Notes under the pieces: model-generated
Told to the model about the DNA's origin: nothing
Database searches by the model: none
The model's input: only the letters and a program-made list of their open reading frames with translations
Shown here: positions 22,409 to 30,929 of the stretch, one piece after another
Layout: each line of letters begins with the position of its first letter
How positions within the stretch are numbered: position 1 is the stretch's first letter
Made by a program: the position numbers and the translations under genes
DNA from: Archaeoglobaceae archaeon
Lineage (GTDB): Archaea > Halobacteriota > Archaeoglobi > Archaeoglobales > Archaeoglobaceae
DNA: 50,238 bases
NCBI GenBank assembly: GCA_026985525.1
Contig: JALSQI010000016.1
Coordinates: 1-50,238 of the forward strand
Direction: 5' to 3'

Positions 22409-23731
22409 ATGAAGTACGTACTCGATGGAGAGGAAATAGACATATGGAGCGATGAGTATGTAGAATACCATTCAAAAAGCATAGCAGATTACGTAAGAGA
22501 GAACTTGCTAAAAAAAGACGTGTTTGGTGAAATAGTTGGAAAAAACGTCGAAAAAGAATTGGTGAAAAACGCCTTAATGAGTGGATCGAGCATACTGTTT
22601 AGAGGTAGAAAGGGATACGGCAAAACTACTTTCGCTAAGGCGATAGCAAAACTTTTGCCAGAAAAACTACTTGCCATAAAGGGTTGTAAGATAAACGACG
22701 ATCCAGTAAATCCAGTATGCTTTTCTTGCAGAAAAAAGCTCGAAAAAGGAGTAGTCGAACTTGAGTGGGTAAAACCAAGGTTTGTTAGAATATGCGGAGA
22801 TCCAATGATGACGACGAGACAGCTCATAGGTGGTATAAGTCTTCAGAAGATAAGAGAAGGTTACGACTTAGATAGCCCAGAAGTGTTTACTCCGGGAAGA
22901 ATTCTAAAAGCTAATAGGGGGATAGCTTACGTTGACGAATTGGGTGCAATTCCCTCAGCTTTACAAACTCTACTTCACGAATTACTTGAAGAGAAGCAGA
23001 TAACAACTCCTGAGGGGGATATAGTTCCAATGAAAATAGATGTTCTATTTATTGCTTCTACTAATCCTTCTAATTACAGAGGTGTTTCGGACATAAAGGA
23101 GCCTTTGCTCGACAGAATGGAGGTCATAGAAATTGGTCCTCCAGAAACAGTTGAGGAGGAAATAGAAATTGCGATGAGAAATTCAAACGAGTGGTTGAAA
23201 GAGAAAGTCATAATACCAGAGTGGCATAGAAAAACTTTGGCGAGAGTCGTTAGGCTTGCAAGAGGTGATGAGGTTAGGCTACCCGCTAAGGTGGAAGTTG
23301 AACCGTCTTGCAGAGCTACTATAAAAGTATTCGATCACGTGATGTCTTCTGCAGTAAGGAGAGGACACAAAGCTGTTATGATTTCTGATTACGGCGTTAA
23401 CGGAGATTTTAGTAATATAGTTTTGGGCGTAAGGGGTAGAATCAAATTAGAGTTTGAGCAGGAAAAAGTTGAAGAAGTCGTAAACACTCTCGTAAACGAC
23501 GCTCTCGAAATAACCTGTTCGGAAGTTTTTAATTCGATGCAGAAAGAAATGTCCTTATTAGCTAAGGAATTAAAGAAAAAAGAGGAAATAAACGTTTATA
23601 AAGATTACAAAGAATTTTCCTTCTTGCCAAAAGGAATGGAAGAATCGGCTCTTGAATTCATGCTTGAATCTCTTGCGAGGTGTGTTGAAGTTGCTGAAAG
23701 GAAAGGAGACGGAATATACATTTACGTATGA
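22409..23731 (+). CDS. ChlI/MoxR-like AAA+ ATPase with cysteine-rich insert
   Basis: A 440-residue AAA+ protein resembling the magnesium-chelatase ChlI subunit. Walker A is GRKGYGKTT (about 70-78), Walker B GIAYVDELG, sensor 1 FIASTNPS, and the arginine region follows in PLLDRMEVIE. Between Walker A and B a segment of about 45 residues carries four cysteines (GCK, CFSC, ICGDP), which could bind zinc. The next gene overlaps by 4 bases and encodes a VWA protein, giving the classic ChlI-ChlD or MoxR-VWA pair. Such pairs act as chelatases or as metal-insertion/remodelling machines; no CobN/ChlH subunit is nearby, so the target is unknown. Confidence 0.78.
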   Translation: MKYVLDGEEIDIWSDEYVEYHSKSIADYVRENLLKKDVFGEIVGKNVEKELVKNALMSGSSILFRGRKGYGKTTFAKAIAKLLPEKLLAIKGCKINDDPVNPVCFSCRKKLEKGVVELEWVKPRFVRICGDPMMTTRQLIGGISLQKIREGYDLDSPEVFTPGRILKANRGIAYVDELGAIPSALQTLLHELLEEKQITTPEGDIVPMKIDVLFIASTNPSNYRGVSDIKEPLLDRMEVIEIGPPETVEEEIEIAMRNSNEWLKEKVIIPEWHRKTLARVVRLARGDEVRLPAKVEVEPSCRATIKVFDHVMSSAVRRGHKAVMISDYGVNGDFSNIVLGVRGRIKLEFEQEKVEEVVNTLVNDALEITCSEVFNSMQKEMSLLAKELKKKEEINVYKDYKEFSFLPKGMEESALEFMLESLARCVEVAERKGDGIYIYV

Positions 23732-24900
23732 CTTGCAGTAGAAGACTTGAGGAGAGATATAGAATTCAATCTTTTTTGGAAAATTTGTGTGTTAGTTTAT
23801 TCGATGAAGAATTAACAAAAAAGCTCAAAAAAGAATCTCTAAAAGTTAGAGAGCTTGTGAAAGATAAAGTAGAGAAGGCTTCAATTAACAAGTCTATCTA
23901 CTACTTAACGAAGGAAATGGAAAAATTGGAAGGAACAGAAGAATACGAGAAAGCTTTTTCCATTTTTAGAGCTTGTTCGAATAAAAGAAGAGAATTGTGG
24001 GAAGAAGTTAAATCTTATATAGCTTCTGGAATTGAACCTGAAAATCCAATTGAAGTTTACGACTCTTTTAGGAAGGAAGTAATAGACGAAATGGAAACTT
24101 TTGGTTTAATAAGGAGAGAAGGTAATAGAATTTTTTTCACGAAAAAAGCTGAAAGGATTATTGCTAAGAGGGCTTTGAAATTTATACTCGAAAGGTTAGA
24201 TAAGTCAGATGGGTTAGATGAGTTCCTTAGCGGTAACTCAAACTCGTTGTTTCCGGAAAGAATTATTGAGTTCGACGAATTTTTGCACACTTTTGACATG
24301 ATTGACATTCAGGAAAGCTTAATCAACGAAATTAGAGTTAGTGGAAAGGTTGGGCTGGAAGATAACTTACTTGCGAGAGAATACGAAAAAACAGGTAAAG
24401 CTGTATTTATAATCTTAATAGATACGAGCGACTCTATGAAAGGAGAAAAACTTAAAGCAGCAGTAAGAGCCGCTTTAGCCTCTAAAATTCTGTTAGAAAA
24501 GAAAAACATAAGGAACTTCAAGATTTTTGCTTTTAATCATTCAGTTAGAGAGATGAAAGATGGGGATATAGTGAACCTTAGAGCGAGGGGCAGAACTGAC
24601 ATTTCCAAAGCTTTGATGAAAGCTGTCAACGTAGCTAAGGGTATGTCTCCAAAAGTTTTTCTTATAACTGATGGAGAGCCAACATGTCCTAATGATCCAG
24701 TTAAAAAAGCTATTGATGCAGCTGAAATGCTCGGAAAAGTTGAAGGATCATCCTTAGCCTTAATAATGCTCAGCAAGGACAAAAAGTATGATGAGTTTTG
24801 CGAAAGGATTACGAGGAAAGTAAAAAATTCTATTTTTATGAAACTTAATCCGGAAGATTTGAGTTTTGTACTCGTTAAAACTTTTACTCAACTAAGGTAA
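23728..24900 (+). CDS. VWA-domain protein paired with AAA+ ATPase (ChlD-like)
   Basis: A 390-residue protein. Residues 1-210 are mostly helical and charged, with no recognised domain. Residues about 220-385 are a von Willebrand A domain with a full MIDAS metal site: DTSDS, RGRTDIS and ITDGEPT. It overlaps the AAA+ gene by 4 bases (ATGA), so the two proteins are probably made in fixed ratio and work as one complex, the VWA part docking a substrate or partner through the MIDAS metal. It is convergent with rad50; the two genes overlap by 17 bases at their 3' ends. Confidence 0.8.
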   Translation: MTCSRRLEERYRIQSFLENLCVSLFDEELTKKLKKESLKVRELVKDKVEKASINKSIYYLTKEMEKLEGTEEYEKAFSIFRACSNKRRELWEEVKSYIASGIEPENPIEVYDSFRKEVIDEMETFGLIRREGNRIFFTKKAERIIAKRALKFILERLDKSDGLDEFLSGNSNSLFPERIIEFDEFLHTFDMIDIQESLINEIRVSGKVGLEDNLLAREYEKTGKAVFIILIDTSDSMKGEKLKAAVRAALASKILLEKKNIRNFKIFAFNHSVREMKDGDIVNLRARGRTDISKALMKAVNVAKGMSPKVFLITDGEPTCPNDPVKKAIDAAEMLGKVEGSSLALIMLSKDKKYDEFCERITRKVKNSIFMKLNPEDLSFVLVKTFTQLR

Positions 24901-27541
24901 TTCCATTCTCCTTTCTCAACTTTACAGCATTGCCTACTACTTCTTCGAAGCTGTCGTCATGACTTATTACGAATATCTGTTTGAAACCTTCTACTCTCGA
25001 AATCTGATTTGCTAAGTTTCTTCTCCTGATTTCGTCCATGTTTTGAGTTGGTTCATCGAAAAAGGCTATGCTTGTAGAAGAAAGCAACTTCAAAAGTGCA
25101 AGTCTTACTGCTATCGCTGCACACATTTGTTCTCCACCGCTCATTTGGGTTAGTTCTATCTCTTTTCCTCTGTAAATTGCTTTTATAGAGTAATCTTTTT
25201 CCCACCTTATCTCCCAAGAATAATCTTCCATCAGTTCGCAGAAAATTCTGTTAGCCTCTATAGATACGGCATCAGTGTAAGCTTTGGTTATTTCGGGTAT
25301 AGCTTTTTTGAATACGTCTCTCAAGTCTTTAACAAATAAGTACTTTTTTTCAACTCTTTTTTTCTCTTCTACTATTCTTTTCAATTCCTCTTCCACGCTA
25401 CAAAGCTTTTTTACTTCTTCTACAAGAGCGTTCGCTCTACTCTTTAACTCGTCAACTCTTCCCTTTAACTCGTAGTATCTCTTTCTCAGCTCTTCAACGC
25501 TTTCTTTAACGGAATAATAATTTTCTTCTGAAAAATTCTCTTCTTCAATTTTTAGCTCTTCTTCGATTTTTTCTATCTCTGCGCGCAGCTTCCTCGCTTC
25601 TTCACTTTTTTCTTTAACTTTTCTTTCTAAATCTTCTCTCTCCTCAGCAATCCTTCTTAGAGAAACGTACTCGTTTAATACTGGCTTTAACTCCTTAAGC
25701 CTTTCTTTACTCTTTTCAATCTCCTCTTTTAACTCTCTCAACTTTTTCTCTACTTCAGGGTACTCTTTTACCTCCCCTCTTAGCTTGAATGCTTTCTCTT
25801 CTAATTCTTTCAACTCTTTTAGCATTTCTTCTTTCTGTCTTAACCTTTCTTGGACTTCTGCAAGCTTTTTTTCTGAGCCTTTAACTTCTCTTAACTTCTC
25901 TCTAATTTCCTCTATTTTTTTAGTTCTATTCTTCAGCTCTTCTAACTCAGTTTTTATTTTCTCCAAATCTACTTTCTTTTCTTTTATTTCTTCTTCTATT
26001 TCTTCCAAGTTCTTGAGCTCAGAATTTATTTCTCCGAGCTTTTCTTCCATTTTTTTCTTTAGTTCTAAAGCTTTTTCAGCTTTTTCAAGTTTCAACTTCA
26101 AAGCTTTCAGCTTTTTCAACTTCTCTTCGAATTCTACCTTTCTCTTTTTTCCCTCTTCCACTATTCTGTTGCAATCCTCTTCGAGTATTGGACAAGTGCC
26201 TTTTAACATCTTTTCTATCTGTTCTTTGTCCATTCTTAGCTTTGTTTTTAGATAAACATAAGCTTCGTTTGCCTTATCTCTGATCTCTTCTACATTCTTT
26301 AACTTTTCAAGTTTTTTCTCTACTTCTGCTTTCTCTTTTATCAATTCTTCTTTTTTCTTGATTTTTTCAATTTTTTTACTTATTTCTTCAAAGAGGTATT
26401 TTTTCTGCTTTTCGAGACCGTTTATTTTTTCTTCAATAACTTCGAGTTCTCTAAGTTCATTTTCAAGTTTTTTCTCTACTTCTGCTTTCTCTTTTAGTTT
26501 TTCTACTTTACACCTCAAACTCTCGATATCAGAAACATTGGCTTTTAAGCTCTCAACTCTCTCCCTAATTGATTTTAGCTCTTCAACTTTTATGGTTAGC
26601 TCCATTATTCTCTTTTCAAGTTTTTCTTTGTATTTTTCCAACTTTTCAACTCTTTCTTCGATTTGTTCGCACTCTTCTGCTTTCTCTTTTAGCTCTTCAG
26701 CCCTTTTTTCAGCTTCTATTGCCTTTTTCAGTTCCTCTTTTTTGCTTTTAACTTCAGTTAAAACGGACATTAGTTCTCCTTTAACTTCTTCAAGCTTTAA
26801 CTTGCTTTTTTGAATTCTTTCCTTTAAATCTTCTAAGTTTTTTAGTTTTTCTTCTTTTTCTACCAAAATTTTGGATATTTTTTCTACTTCTCCTTTTAAG
26901 GAATTCATCAAGCTCTCAGTTTTTTCAAGCTCTTCTTTCCTTTTTTTCAGATTTTCAACTTCACTTTTAAGTTCCGCTTCTCTGACTTCTAAGTCTCTCA
27001 ATTTATCTCTTAACCAATTTTCATACTCTCTACTCCTTTCGTAAGCCTTTCTATAACTTTCCACACCTATGACTGGTGAAAACGTCGCTTCTCTTGCGTT
27101 TGGTGGATTTAAAAATTGAGAGACCATCATTCCCTGCCTAACTCCCATCACGTTTTCGAACATCGTTTTTGGATCGCTTTCAAATCCAAAGTTCTCTTTT
27201 ATCCAGCTGAGTACTTCTTCCCTGCCCTCAGCTATTCTTCCAAGCTCTAAATCCTCTACGTAGTATTCAGTGGTTCTACTTTCCTCTATTTTTCTTACGA
27301 CTCTGTAAAGCCTGTCATCTCTTCCTCTAATTGTAACTCTAATTTCACCTCTCTTTTCACCTCTCCTCAAAAACTCTCCTATCTTGTAAGGCAGGGAATC
27401 AAACAAAGCGAAGCCTATAGCCTCTATAATCGTTGTTTTTCCAGCTCCGTTCTCCCCCAGTATCGCATTTACACCCTCTGTAAAATTTAATTTTGTATCA
27501 GAATGACTTTTAATGTTTACGAGTCTTACTTCTATGATCAT
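24884..27541 (-). CDS. rad50: DNA double-strand break repair ATPase Rad50
   Basis: An 885-residue SMC-like ATPase that acts with Mre11 in break processing. Walker A GENGAGKTT lies in the N-terminal part, then two long coiled-coil arms, then Q-loop/signature LTQMSGGEQMCAA, Walker B IAFFDEP, D-loop and VISHDD at the C terminus. The central hook, normally C-P-x-C, reads CPILEEDC (Cys 450 and Cys 457), giving C-x6-C. Start ATG 27541 follows GGGAGGAG and overlaps the mre11 end by 32 bases; an upstream in-frame start at 27580 lacks support. It is in the same operon as mre11. Confidence 0.96.
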   Translation of the reverse strand: MIIEVRLVNIKSHSDTKLNFTEGVNAILGENGAGKTTIIEAIGFALFDSLPYKIGEFLRRGEKRGEIRVTIRGRDDRLYRVVRKIEESRTTEYYVEDLELGRIAEGREEVLSWIKENFGFESDPKTMFENVMGVRQGMMVSQFLNPPNAREATFSPVIGVESYRKAYERSREYENWLRDKLRDLEVREAELKSEVENLKKRKEELEKTESLMNSLKGEVEKISKILVEKEEKLKNLEDLKERIQKSKLKLEEVKGELMSVLTEVKSKKEELKKAIEAEKRAEELKEKAEECEQIEERVEKLEKYKEKLEKRIMELTIKVEELKSIRERVESLKANVSDIESLRCKVEKLKEKAEVEKKLENELRELEVIEEKINGLEKQKKYLFEEISKKIEKIKKKEELIKEKAEVEKKLEKLKNVEEIRDKANEAYVYLKTKLRMDKEQIEKMLKGTCPILEEDCNRIVEEGKKRKVEFEEKLKKLKALKLKLEKAEKALELKKKMEEKLGEINSELKNLEEIEEEIKEKKVDLEKIKTELEELKNRTKKIEEIREKLREVKGSEKKLAEVQERLRQKEEMLKELKELEEKAFKLRGEVKEYPEVEKKLRELKEEIEKSKERLKELKPVLNEYVSLRRIAEEREDLERKVKEKSEEARKLRAEIEKIEEELKIEEENFSEENYYSVKESVEELRKRYYELKGRVDELKSRANALVEEVKKLCSVEEELKRIVEEKKRVEKKYLFVKDLRDVFKKAIPEITKAYTDAVSIEANRIFCELMEDYSWEIRWEKDYSIKAIYRGKEIELTQMSGGEQMCAAIAVRLALLKLLSSTSIAFFDEPTQNMDEIRRRNLANQISRVEGFKQIFVISHDDSFEEVVGNAVKLRKENGITLVE

Positions 27542-28862
27542 AAGTTCTCCTCCAATCCCATACTTCTTCTTCATCTTCATCTTTCATCTTTAATTCAGCT
27601 TTTTCTATTTTTTCGGTTTCAGCTTTACATTTACCTATTACTTCTTTTTTCTTTGCTATTTCTTTTTCTATATCTTTATTTTCCTTAGACGTTTTAGTAA
27701 TTTTTTTAACTTTTTTGGAGTTAACAAAAATTTCGTCAACGAACTCGTCTATTTTTTCTAAGCTAAACTTTCCGCAGAATGCATTTTTGAGCGTTACGAC
27801 TTCTTCGCTTATATTTCCATAGCTGTAGTTTTCGAGTATTTGCGATATTACTGAAAGCTCTATGTCTTCTTTTTCGAACTTGACTACGGGAGAGAATTCG
27901 TCAAAAATTTCCCACCTAATTTTTAACGCTATCGGGTTAACTTTTATAGACCTCTTAATCTCTTCTTCATCTAAAACTTTTCTCATACTTCTACTGCACT
28001 TAATGTTTAAGTAAATTACAGGCCTTTCGACCTTTATGTTAGAAAGCCTACTCTTTAAATTTTTAATGTCTTCTTCGTTTTTTATTTCAGCATTTATGAT
28101 TTCGAATTCTCTCCCTCCAACTCTTTTTAATTTAGCTTTGACTTCTCCATTGACTTCAACTATAAAAAATCCTCTGTCGTATTTCAATTCACTTATATCG
28201 CAGACCTCTAAGCTACCGGGATTGTGTATTTTTCCTTCAATGAAGCTCATGTGTATGTGCCCTAAGGCTATGTAATCAACGTTAAGTTTGTGAAATCTCG
28301 AAGATGGTACGCAACCCTGAATATTTACGTATCCCTCCACGCCAGCATGAGCAACAAAAATCGTAAATCCCTTCTTTTTTATTTTCTTGGAATACATTTC
28401 TAATACTTTTTCTGTCATCGAACCGTAGTACTTCATCCCGTAAACTCTGACGCCGCACTCCAAGTCAACGTAAGCACCGCTACTTCCATCCCACTCTTCC
28501 ACTACCATGTCTTCTTCAAAGTTAGGTTTTAAGTTAATCAGAAGGTTTTGATGTGCTAAGTAGTCAAGCCAAGAAAACGTATCTCTAAAGTACGCAGAAT
28601 CGTGATTTCCTTCAACTGCAATAACTGGTACATCTCTCTCCTTTGCAATTTCCAGAACTTTTATTGCCTGAGTTAGTGTTAATGGATCCATGTCGCTTTT
28701 TCTGTGAAACATATCCCCAGCAATTATTATGAAGTCAACTCTTTCTTTTACAGCTTCTTTCATCGCTTTTAAAAACGCTTGAGCAAAGTCTATCGCCCTT
28801 TCTTCACTACCATACTGTCTGTATCCGAGGTGTAAATCAGCCATATGAGCAAACTTTACCAT
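27510..28862 (-). CDS. mre11: DNA double-strand break repair nuclease Mre11
   Basis: A 450-residue Mn-dependent nuclease. The five phosphoesterase motifs are intact: ADLHLGY, GDMFHR, EGNHDS, VAHAG and ALGHIH. The long, lysine-rich C-terminal region (KKITKTSKENKD... onward) is the expected Rad50-binding tail. ATG 28862 gives the usual start MVKFAHMADLHLGY; an in-frame TTG at 28907, which overlaps the stop of the upstream regulator, would add 15 atypical residues. Upstream on the same strand lies an XRE-CBS gene, overlapping by 4 bases if that TTG is used. herA and nurA, frequent neighbours in thermophiles, are absent. Confidence 0.96.
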   Translation of the reverse strand: MVKFAHMADLHLGYRQYGSEERAIDFAQAFLKAMKEAVKERVDFIIIAGDMFHRKSDMDPLTLTQAIKVLEIAKERDVPVIAVEGNHDSAYFRDTFSWLDYLAHQNLLINLKPNFEEDMVVEEWDGSSGAYVDLECGVRVYGMKYYGSMTEKVLEMYSKKIKKKGFTIFVAHAGVEGYVNIQGCVPSSRFHKLNVDYIALGHIHMSFIEGKIHNPGSLEVCDISELKYDRGFFIVEVNGEVKAKLKRVGGREFEIINAEIKNEEDIKNLKSRLSNIKVERPVIYLNIKCSRSMRKVLDEEEIKRSIKVNPIALKIRWEIFDEFSPVVKFEKEDIELSVISQILENYSYGNISEEVVTLKNAFCGKFSLEKIDEFVDEIFVNSKKVKKITKTSKENKDIEKEIAKKKEVIGKCKAETEKIEKAELKMKDEDEEEVWDWRRTYDHRSKTRKH

Positions 28863-28903: not shown

Positions 28904-29479
28904 TCAAAACCTTATCGCTTTCATTACGTCGTGCTTGGTAATTATTCCTAAAAGCTTACTTCTCTCACTCACCAAAACGGCTGGACTACTCAACAGGAGT
29001 TTTGATATTGTGTCGAGACACTCATCCTTAGATACTGTTGGGAAAGGTGCTTCCATACACTCTTCAACTCTTATCTTTCCGGCAGCTACACCTTTTTCTA
29101 ACATTATTTTAACGACTCCGCTTTCAGTAATACTGCCAACGACTTTACTCTTTTTAACTACTGGCATTTGAGAAATCCCGTGTTTCATCATTATCTCTAC
29201 AGCTTCTCTAAGTCTCGCAGTTGTTTCTACGACTTTTACTGGTGAATTCATAATTTTTTCAGCGTTTATGGCTTTTCCTTCAACTTCTTCTAATACTTCA
29301 AATATCCTCCTAACGAGGGAGAGTTTTGGGTCAAAATCTCCGGACTCTATTCTTGCTATTAAGGGCTGGCTAACCCCTACTAATTCCGCAAGTTTTTTCT
29401 GCGTTAATCCGAGTCTCTTTCTCTTTATTTTGATCATTTCTATTTCCGGAAACATTTGGTGGAACTCTAACTGTTGCAT
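28904..29479 (-). CDS. XRE-family regulator with two CBS domains
   Basis: A 191-residue protein. Residues about 18-70 are a Cro/XRE helix-turn-helix (RKRLGLTQKKLAELVGVSQPLIARIESGDFDP). Two CBS domains follow (IMNSPVKVVETTARLREAV... and CMEAPFPTVSKDECLDTI...), which usually sense adenine nucleotides or SAM. This architecture is widespread in archaea and of unknown target. The start may be ATG 29479, or ATG 29452 (MFPEIEMIKIK), which looks like the usual N terminus. A TATA-like AAAATATAAC near 29519-29528 (minus strand) fits. It heads the strand containing mre11-rad50 and may control them. Confidence 0.85.
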   Translation of the reverse strand: MQQLEFHQMFPEIEMIKIKRKRLGLTQKKLAELVGVSQPLIARIESGDFDPKLSLVRRIFEVLEEVEGKAINAEKIMNSPVKVVETTARLREAVEIMMKHGISQMPVVKKSKVVGSITESGVVKIMLEKGVAAGKIRVEECMEAPFPTVSKDECLDTISKLLLSSPAVLVSERSKLLGIITKHDVMKAIRF

Positions 29480-29673: not shown

Positions 29674-29713
29674 TATTCTTCAAAACTAAACTGCCCGGAA
29701 TGGAGGGATGACA

Positions 29714-30313
29714 ATGAAAAAGCTGTTTATGTTGTTAATACTGGTTGTATTGGTATCGGGATTCGTTGCTGGATGTGCTCAGCAAAATACGACACCTAAG
29801 GCAACTCCAACACCCACTCCAACACCAACTCCAACTCCAACCGCTACGTCTAAGGCAACTCCAACCCCAACACCAACTGCTACGGAAACGGTTAAAGCCG
29901 CTACTACGAGTAGTAATGCAAAAGTTAACTGTTTGCTCTGCCACACCAAGGCAGCTGATTATCAGGCTCACAAGGATCCGAATGGTTGTACTAAGTGTCA
30001 TGGTAGTGACCCGCACAAGATTCACTGTGGGCCTGGAACTATAAACCTACAGTGTTCTGTTTGCCACGGCACTGGAACTCACGTTCACATACCTAAGGCT
30101 CCAAATGGAGGCTCACCCTGTATGCTTTGTCACAACCCGAAGAACCCAGTAAAGCCTGTTACGAACTACGTTGAAGTTCACTTACCAAAGGGTGTTTACT
30201 GTACTGCATGCCACACTCAGCCAATTGCCCAGCTTCACAGTGCAGCTAACCAGTACGTTAACAAAACAACACCACTCCCAGTTTACGAGCCTGTAACAGG
30301 AAAGCTCGGTTAA
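29714..30313 (+). CDS. Pentaheme c-type cytochrome, lipoprotein with Thr-Pro linker
   Basis: A 199-residue secreted protein. The signal peptide ends with lipobox FVAGC (Cys 21). A low-complexity Thr-Pro spacer (about residues 29-57) comes next, then a heme domain with five CxxCH motifs (CLLCH, CTKCH, CSVCH, CMLCH, CTACH) and several extra His residues as possible axial ligands. It should sit on the outer face of the membrane and pass electrons at the surface. ATG 29714 is 7 bases after GGAGG. I do not recognise a named family. It probably forms a unit with the next gene, which starts 1 base after its stop. The acceptor is unknown. Confidence 0.88.
   Translation: MKKLFMLLILVVLVSGFVAGCAQQNTTPKATPTPTPTPTPTPTATSKATPTPTPTATETVKAATTSSNAKVNCLLCHTKAADYQAHKDPNGCTKCHGSDPHKIHCGPGTINLQCSVCHGTGTHVHIPKAPNGGSPCMLCHNPKNPVKPVTNYVEVHLPKGVYCTACHTQPIAQLHSAANQYVNKTTPLPVYEPVTGKLG
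29797..29882 (+). repeat. Thr-Pro coding repeat, two copies in 54-base register
   Basis: The 15-mer TAAGGCAACTCCAAC occurs at 29797-29811 and 29851-29865, each followed by runs of CCAACA/CCAACT units. It encodes two tandem KATPTPTP...TAT blocks in the cytochrome linker. Such runs can change length by slippage, so the linker length may vary between strains. Confidence 0.7.
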
Positions 30314-30314
30314 C

Positions 30315-30929
30315 ATGGCCATGAGGTCTGTTATTTTTTTACTTATTTTTGCACTGGCTACAGCTGCCGCTTTGAGCATGTGTGTTCAAACAGAGAAAGT
30401 AAAATTAAACGCAACACCTGAGAAAAAAGTTGTAAAAGTTGTAACAAAAAAAGTAGAGCAAAACGTAACTAAGCAAAACGAGTCCGTGTCAATCAAAGCT
30501 GCAGTGACTAAACCTATTGGTGGAGAGTGCTTAGGCTGTCATTACAACCCCAAAACACAGTACATACCACAGGTTGATAAAATACCCGGACACTTAAACG
30601 CCACGAAGTATTGTATTTATTGCCACGTACCAAACGTAACTCACAAGACGAGAAAGCAAATAGACGAATACATTGCTGAGTTACATCACAACACGACTTG
30701 GGCTAAGGAAGGTAAATGTTCTTTCTGCCACAAAACGACTACTGAAAACATGAGAGATTGTGGAGCTTGCCACGGATATCCAAATCCTGTATCGCCGAGT
30801 AACGGGAATGTATTTGTGATACACTCACCACATGGGGTTGATTGCCAAGACTGTCACGGACATGTCTTTATACTCATCCACTACTACCACAAGCCGTTTC
30901 CACCTCAGTTCCCAATACCTGTTAAATAA
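30315..30929 (+). CDS. Second pentaheme c-type cytochrome
   Basis: A 204-residue secreted protein with five CxxCH motifs (CLGCH, CIYCH, CSFCH, CGACH, CQDCH) and additional His pairs (ELHHNTT, HYYHKPF). The N-terminal hydrophobic signal ends ALSMC at Cys 23; Met before Cys is atypical for a lipobox, so lipid anchoring is uncertain. The region before the hemes is lysine-rich and, like the heme domain, has several N-x-S/T sequons, suggesting surface glycosylation. Starts at ATG 30315 or 30321. It is probably cotranscribed with the preceding cytochrome. The 3' end overlaps the convergent DUF523 gene by 8 bases. Confidence 0.87.
   Translation: MAMRSVIFLLIFALATAAALSMCVQTEKVKLNATPEKKVVKVVTKKVEQNVTKQNESVSIKAAVTKPIGGECLGCHYNPKTQYIPQVDKIPGHLNATKYCIYCHVPNVTHKTRKQIDEYIAELHHNTTWAKEGKCSFCHKTTTENMRDCGACHGYPNPVSPSNGNVFVIHSPHGVDCQDCHGHVFILIHYYHKPFPPQFPIPVK

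Follow-up and report, generated by a model that had tools for sequence, protein, structure and literature searches.

Published work describes the CXXC zinc hook as conserved across all domains of life, in the Rad50s of archaea, humans and viruses alike, and as an intermolecular Zn(Cys)4 site that is required for function (PMC5093744, PMC9569753). Two further reports give stable dimerisation as the basic role of the canonical hook, with an SMC hinge able to replace it in yeast (PMC6969161), and state that the P. furiosus hook can substitute for the B. subtilis Smc hinge (PMC5344682). A zinc hook motif is likewise ascribed to the SMC-like ATPase ASRP (ClsN/Sph) (PMC9389158). The portions of the open-access literature that our search returned contain no mention of a wide-spaced (CX6C) Rad50 hook.

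The window, by which we mean the entire 50,238-nucleotide stretch of DNA analysed here, encodes a Rad50 with such a spacing. Canonical CPxC Rad50s (model NF003034; the P. furiosus structures PDB 1L8D and 6ZFF; the protein of the Archaeoglobus genome G001) and the window protein have in common the ABC head motifs, a long, in the present case predicted, antiparallel coiled coil with a central Cys-Pro...Cys apex, an mre11 gene upstream and, often, a nurA gene nearby. They differ in the distance between the two cysteines, which is C-x2-C in the canonical proteins and C-x6-C here, and the leucine found four residues past the second cysteine of the canonical hook has no certain counterpart in the window protein. 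The gene and its parts are:

24884..27541, minus strand: rad50, 885 aa, with ABC ATPase head halves flanking the predicted antiparallel coiled coil
27434..27457, minus strand: Walker A, GENGAGKT, residues 29-36
26195..27019, minus strand: coiled-coil arm 1, about residues 175-449
26171..26194, minus strand: hook motif C450-P451-I452-L453-E454-E455-D456-C457 (C-x6-C), from the translation
26162..26170, minus strand: post-hook residues N458-R459-I460, from the offset profile of relatives (class consensus C-D-R-I)
25352..26170, minus strand: coiled-coil arm 2, about residues 458-730
25127..25141, minus strand: ABC signature, SGGEQ, residues 801-805
25034..25063, minus strand: Walker B and D-loop, FFDEPTQNMD, residues 827-836

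The best-scoring NCBIfam model for this protein is Rad50 NF003034 (E=1e-79; 268 bits, where the cut-off is 700), which outscores both the SMC models (at most 73 bits) and the ASRP model NF045487 (98 bits, cut-off 300, with a model length of 593 versus 885 residues), and its PDB matches are Rad50 ATPase head structures. It falls below the cut-off of every curated archaeal equivalog (NF003034, NF041034, NF002244, NF041035 and NF002572), as do the relatives tested from family f4, from haloarchaea and from the set with x7 hooks described below; the G001 Rad50 scores 1091 with NF003034. GENGAGKT, SGGEQ and FFDEP are invariant or nearly so in an alignment of 34 orthologues (A1), which identifies a split ABC ATPase head. 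Both arms display a 3.5-residue periodicity that none of 2000 shuffles matched in strength, and from the split head we infer that the arms would fold in antiparallel fashion. PADLOC returned generic SMC/ABC similarity and nothing more specific.

The initial annotation had drawn attention to the motif CPILEEDC at the apex, with the proline after the first cysteine kept and no other CxxC in the arms. The translation bears out the C-x6-C spacing at residues 450-457. The motif is central in the coiled coil, preceded by 449 residues and followed by 428. Seven cysteines are present (291, 344, 450, 457, 714, 768 and 807), and no C-x-x-C is formed by any of them, at the apex or elsewhere in the 885 residues. 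A search of 59 Archaeoglobi genomes recovered two kinds of Rad50, and alignment A1 comprises 34 sampled sequences of the window's kind, drawn from its own genus, other genera of its family and one genus each of a second and a third family; the other members are 31-59% identical to the window protein. C-P-x5-C stands at the apex in all 34, and the departure from CPxC is genuine. Moreover, C450, P451 and C457 are the sole invariant columns among the 556 of the coiled coil (residues 175-730), where the majority residue has a mean frequency of 43%, and chance retention of the hook residues is therefore excluded. The remaining arm cysteines (291, 344 and 714) occur in just one or two of the 34 sequences. 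Around the motif, position 455 is E in 30/34, position 459 is R in 31/34 and position 460 is I, V or L throughout, while 454 is mostly K, N, D, G or E and 456 mostly S, D or E. The earlier proposal that three acidic residues between the cysteines select a different metal was accordingly dropped, E455 being the only conserved one.

The second kind of Archaeoglobi Rad50, found in Archaeoglobus genomes like G001 (which we take to be A. fulgidus-like) and others, has CPxC throughout and is about 26-33% identical to the window query. Genome G019 contains both kinds, and the D-loop sets them apart: PTQNMD (window 25034-25051) is invariant in 34/34 proteins of the window's lineage, whereas the canonical Rad50s of the same class mostly have PTPFLD. 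The idea that Archaeoglobus has CPVC and that the window protein is hence a local oddity was rejected, as the G001-type Rad50 is a separate lineage. Every close relative in the alignment has C-x6-C, the CPxC proteins being distant, and the refuting case named in the initial annotation, close relatives with C-x2-C together with signs of a sequencing error, is not borne out. As a separate observation, a few Archaeoglobi carry a further CPxC Mre11-Rad50 pair (L039 in G019, L040 in G003 and L054 in G054), and the Rad50s of L039 and L040 cluster with proteins of other families in the head tree. Divergent second NurA copies are found in G003, G019, G031 and G045, and together with the extra pairs they look like a transferred accessory set.

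The genes upstream of the window's rad50 are:

27510..28862, minus strand: mre11, about 450 aa, Metallophos domain (NF041029 Mre11, E=2e-36)
28904..29479, minus strand: protein with HTH and CBS-like domains, upstream of mre11 (domains read by eye from the translation)

In the window, mre11 and the beginning of rad50 share 32 bp, and at every intact locus of this lineage the gene immediately upstream of rad50 is mre11; the protein thus has the partner gene typical of a Mre11-Rad50 pair. The HTH/CBS-like gene is possibly co-transcribed with mre11. In many Archaeoglobi nurA adjoins rad50; none was found in the 95%-complete genome G000, and it is present in 5/5 sampled congeners. Since the canonical profile A2 found no second Rad50 in seven Archaeoglobi genomes of the window's lineage, G000 included, the wide-hook protein seems to fill the Rad50 role alone in them.

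To trace the wide hook beyond the class, profile A1 was run against 393 Halobacteriota genomes and the loci of the best matches were read. Extended-hook members outside the class were recognised by their motif, so that strict invariance of the thiols can be claimed for the 34 alone. Seventeen such relatives have C-x6-C or C-x7-C with both cysteines and the proline kept. C-x6-C recurs in a class represented by seven genomes (CPYTxxxC) and in G076 and G085. The short-armed Rad50s found in families f11, f12 and f36, as well as the longer ones of f36 and f37, mostly have C-x7-C (CPILxGVEC and similar). The short-armed form is present in 4/4 genomes of the f11 order, two of which are presumably Methanocella. 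The short-armed Rad50s (768-786 aa) of these and related genomes resemble the window protein in their extended hook and upstream mre11; they differ by one extra hook residue (mostly C-x7-C), usually a glycine in the loop, and a length about 100 residues shorter. At eight loci (L095-L099, L101, L102 and L104) the Mre11 partner of the short-armed form is intact. A search for related loci among the genome contigs gave two remote and uninformative matches.

In a tree of 106 Rad50 heads, all 51 extended-hook proteins fall within one clade of 63 (SH-aLRT 99), whose other members are haloarchaeal second-copy proteins annotated as SMC family ATPase. The latter share the heads of this clade and an upstream mre11, but have a CPTC hook, unlike the C-x6-C of the window; the haloarchaeal genomes checked (G390, G299 and G265) additionally carry a Rad50 gene of the kind usual in haloarchaea. 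The fewest changes between wide and narrow hooks on the head tree is two, and the tree of the partner Mre11 proteins gives the same minimum, although grouping the wide hooks as a single clade is not rejected (p-AU 0.30). Three histories are hence compatible with the trees: a single origin of the wide hook, with the haloarchaeal group as its neighbour; two origins of the wide hook; or a return to the narrow one. Long branches counsel caution in choosing among these. The haloarchaeal second Mre11-Rad50 pairs of this clade were read at L075 and L077-L087, similar genes occur on plasmids of Halorussus, Natrinema and Halobaculum, and these pairs are possibly mobile or defence-related.

The initial annotation had pictured the hook as a wider loop. 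The cysteine spacing is indeed wider, but the loop itself is doubtful, as L453, C457 and I460 are predicted to lie in the core stripe of arm 2. This prediction comes from the hydrophobic periodicity at positions -50 to -10 and +14 to +55 relative to C450, extrapolated to the hook. In the window's lineage the core stripe of arm 1 reaches position 449 (-1; score 0.97), which is T in the window protein and mostly I, V or L in relatives. On the arm-2 side the scores are 1.0 for L453, 0.70 for C457 and 1.0 for I460 (+3, +7 and +10), with C450 at 0.70. The CPYTxxxC class has a similar heptad phase, and in two CxxC groups the second cysteine is out of phase (-0.78 and -0.61), as a coil broken by a beta-hairpin would predict. 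These patterns suggest a tip that is tighter and more helical than the canonical hook, with part of the apparent loop being helix. Two relatives have a proline at +6 (CPILDEPC and CPILGEPC) and most x7 loops, typically CPILxGVEC, contain a glycine and look non-helical, which argues against a fully helical start; helix 2 may thus begin near 454-455. Single-sequence AlphaFold2 rendered the hook fragment as one unbroken helix, a result that cannot represent the complete fold, and in the same mode gave helix-loop-helix for the canonical control, the protein L141 from a viral-database contig. A PDB search with the hook fragment yielded no relevant match. A model in which Leu and Cys were exchanged within a motif of equal length (CPVCGREL versus CPILEEDC) was dropped as the sole explanation because x7 forms exist and because, once the second cysteines are aligned, both hook types share an Arg two residues further on.

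Taken together, the strictly kept cysteine pair and proline, in a protein paired with Mre11, are best explained by the same job being done with another spacing. We propose, with a probability of about 0.6 for the explanation as a whole, that the window protein is a member of a separate and old lineage of Rad50 with an alternative cysteine dimerisation hook, most likely a metal site of four cysteines shared between two protomers, at a tighter and helical tip. As a modification of a familiar device, the wide hook is real, old and spread through the whole lineage; that it dimerises, binds zinc and has a helical tip is deduced from its residues and their periodicity, with zinc as the default guess for the bound metal. 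In this proposal Rad50 would act with the Mre11 encoded beside it, and its arms would fold back around C450-P451 to place both cysteines of each protomer at the apex. Two apices would then meet head to head, as they do in ordinary Rad50, and so link the arms of the complex with Mre11, and the bond would most likely be a zinc site of four cysteines common to both protomers, in a tip tighter and more helical than the canonical 14-residue beta-hairpin.

It is also conceivable, though we regard it as distinctly less probable, that the motif represents an ancient second hook of non-canonical geometry, that is, a tight helical hairpin with the cysteines of C-P-x5-C or C-P-x6-C in its core stripe and possibly another metal, arranged for example as two two-cysteine sites or across the chains. 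One point counts against the single four-cysteine site: were helix 2 to start at P451, ideal helix geometry would put C450 and C457 about 10 angstrom apart along one helix, too far for one chain to chelate an ion. A single Zn(Cys)4 would then be feasible if residues 450-456 were not helical or if the ligands came together across the chains.

That disulfides within a chain (450-457) or between chains (450-457') close the apex, making the tip covalent or redox-switched in place of a metal hook, appears unlikely. Every one of the 51 extended-hook sequences in the tree keeps two thiols, C-x6-C fits a disulfide-closed hairpin, and thermophilic archaea use intracellular disulfides. However, the Methanocella-like genomes with the extended hook are, we presume, those of mesophiles, so that the hook does not track temperature and the thermostability version in particular is weakened, and the nearest sister proteins bear the canonical CPTC zinc-hook motif. 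Dimerisation by coiled-coil packing is similarly doubtful: here the cysteines would sit in the helical core, or form two two-cysteine sites with E455 or other residues, and no single Zn(Cys)4 would exist. The core-stripe phase of C450, L453, C457 and I460, the i,i+4 spacing of E455 and R459, which resembles a helical salt bridge, and the all-helical AlphaFold2 fragment speak for it; the proline at +6, unfavourable within a helix starting at +1, the non-helical look of the x7 forms with their loop glycine, and a strictness of cysteine conservation beyond what packing needs speak against it. We give very little weight to another cofactor, such as Fe, Fe-S or a different soft metal suited to strict anaerobes; organisms of this lineage are anaerobes and the four cysteines of a dimer could bind one, but no Fe-S motif is recognisable and the haloarchaeal sister proteins keep CPTC. 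An error of sequencing or assembly is ruled out, as is a protein in decay that has lost its hook function, by conservation in 34/34 separately assembled genomes, several of them single-contig, with open frames, and by this being the sole Rad50 found in its genome.

Most of one archaeal class and several other archaeal lineages thus rely on a Rad50 that lacks CXXC yet keeps the cysteine pair and proline, so that a component considered universal also exists in another, ancient form. The natural variation in spacing (x2, x6 and x7) makes it possible to test what a hook needs, be it metal affinity, tip geometry or mere dimerisation, and how the apex communicates with the head. As the wide hook occurs in cultured species (presumably A. 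veneficus, A. sulfaticallidus, Ferroglobus, Geoglobus and Methanocella), the proteins can be purified for this purpose. Annotation by hook motif and the present equivalog models miss them.

In the viral database IMG/VR, two contigs (L141 and L143) have adjacent Mre11 and Rad50-like genes. The hook of L141 is CPIC; L143 has no CxxC, and its 898-aa frame shows CSGSVRDAC at residue 471 instead, another wide cysteine pair, without the proline. On the other side of rad50 in the window, genes for a MoxR-like AAA ATPase and, after it, a VWA-domain-like protein (22409-24900) converge on rad50, with an overlap of 17 bp at its 3' end. Farther upstream (29708-30929) lie two consecutive genes for small multihaem cytochromes c that look secreted, with about five haem-binding CxxCH motifs in each.
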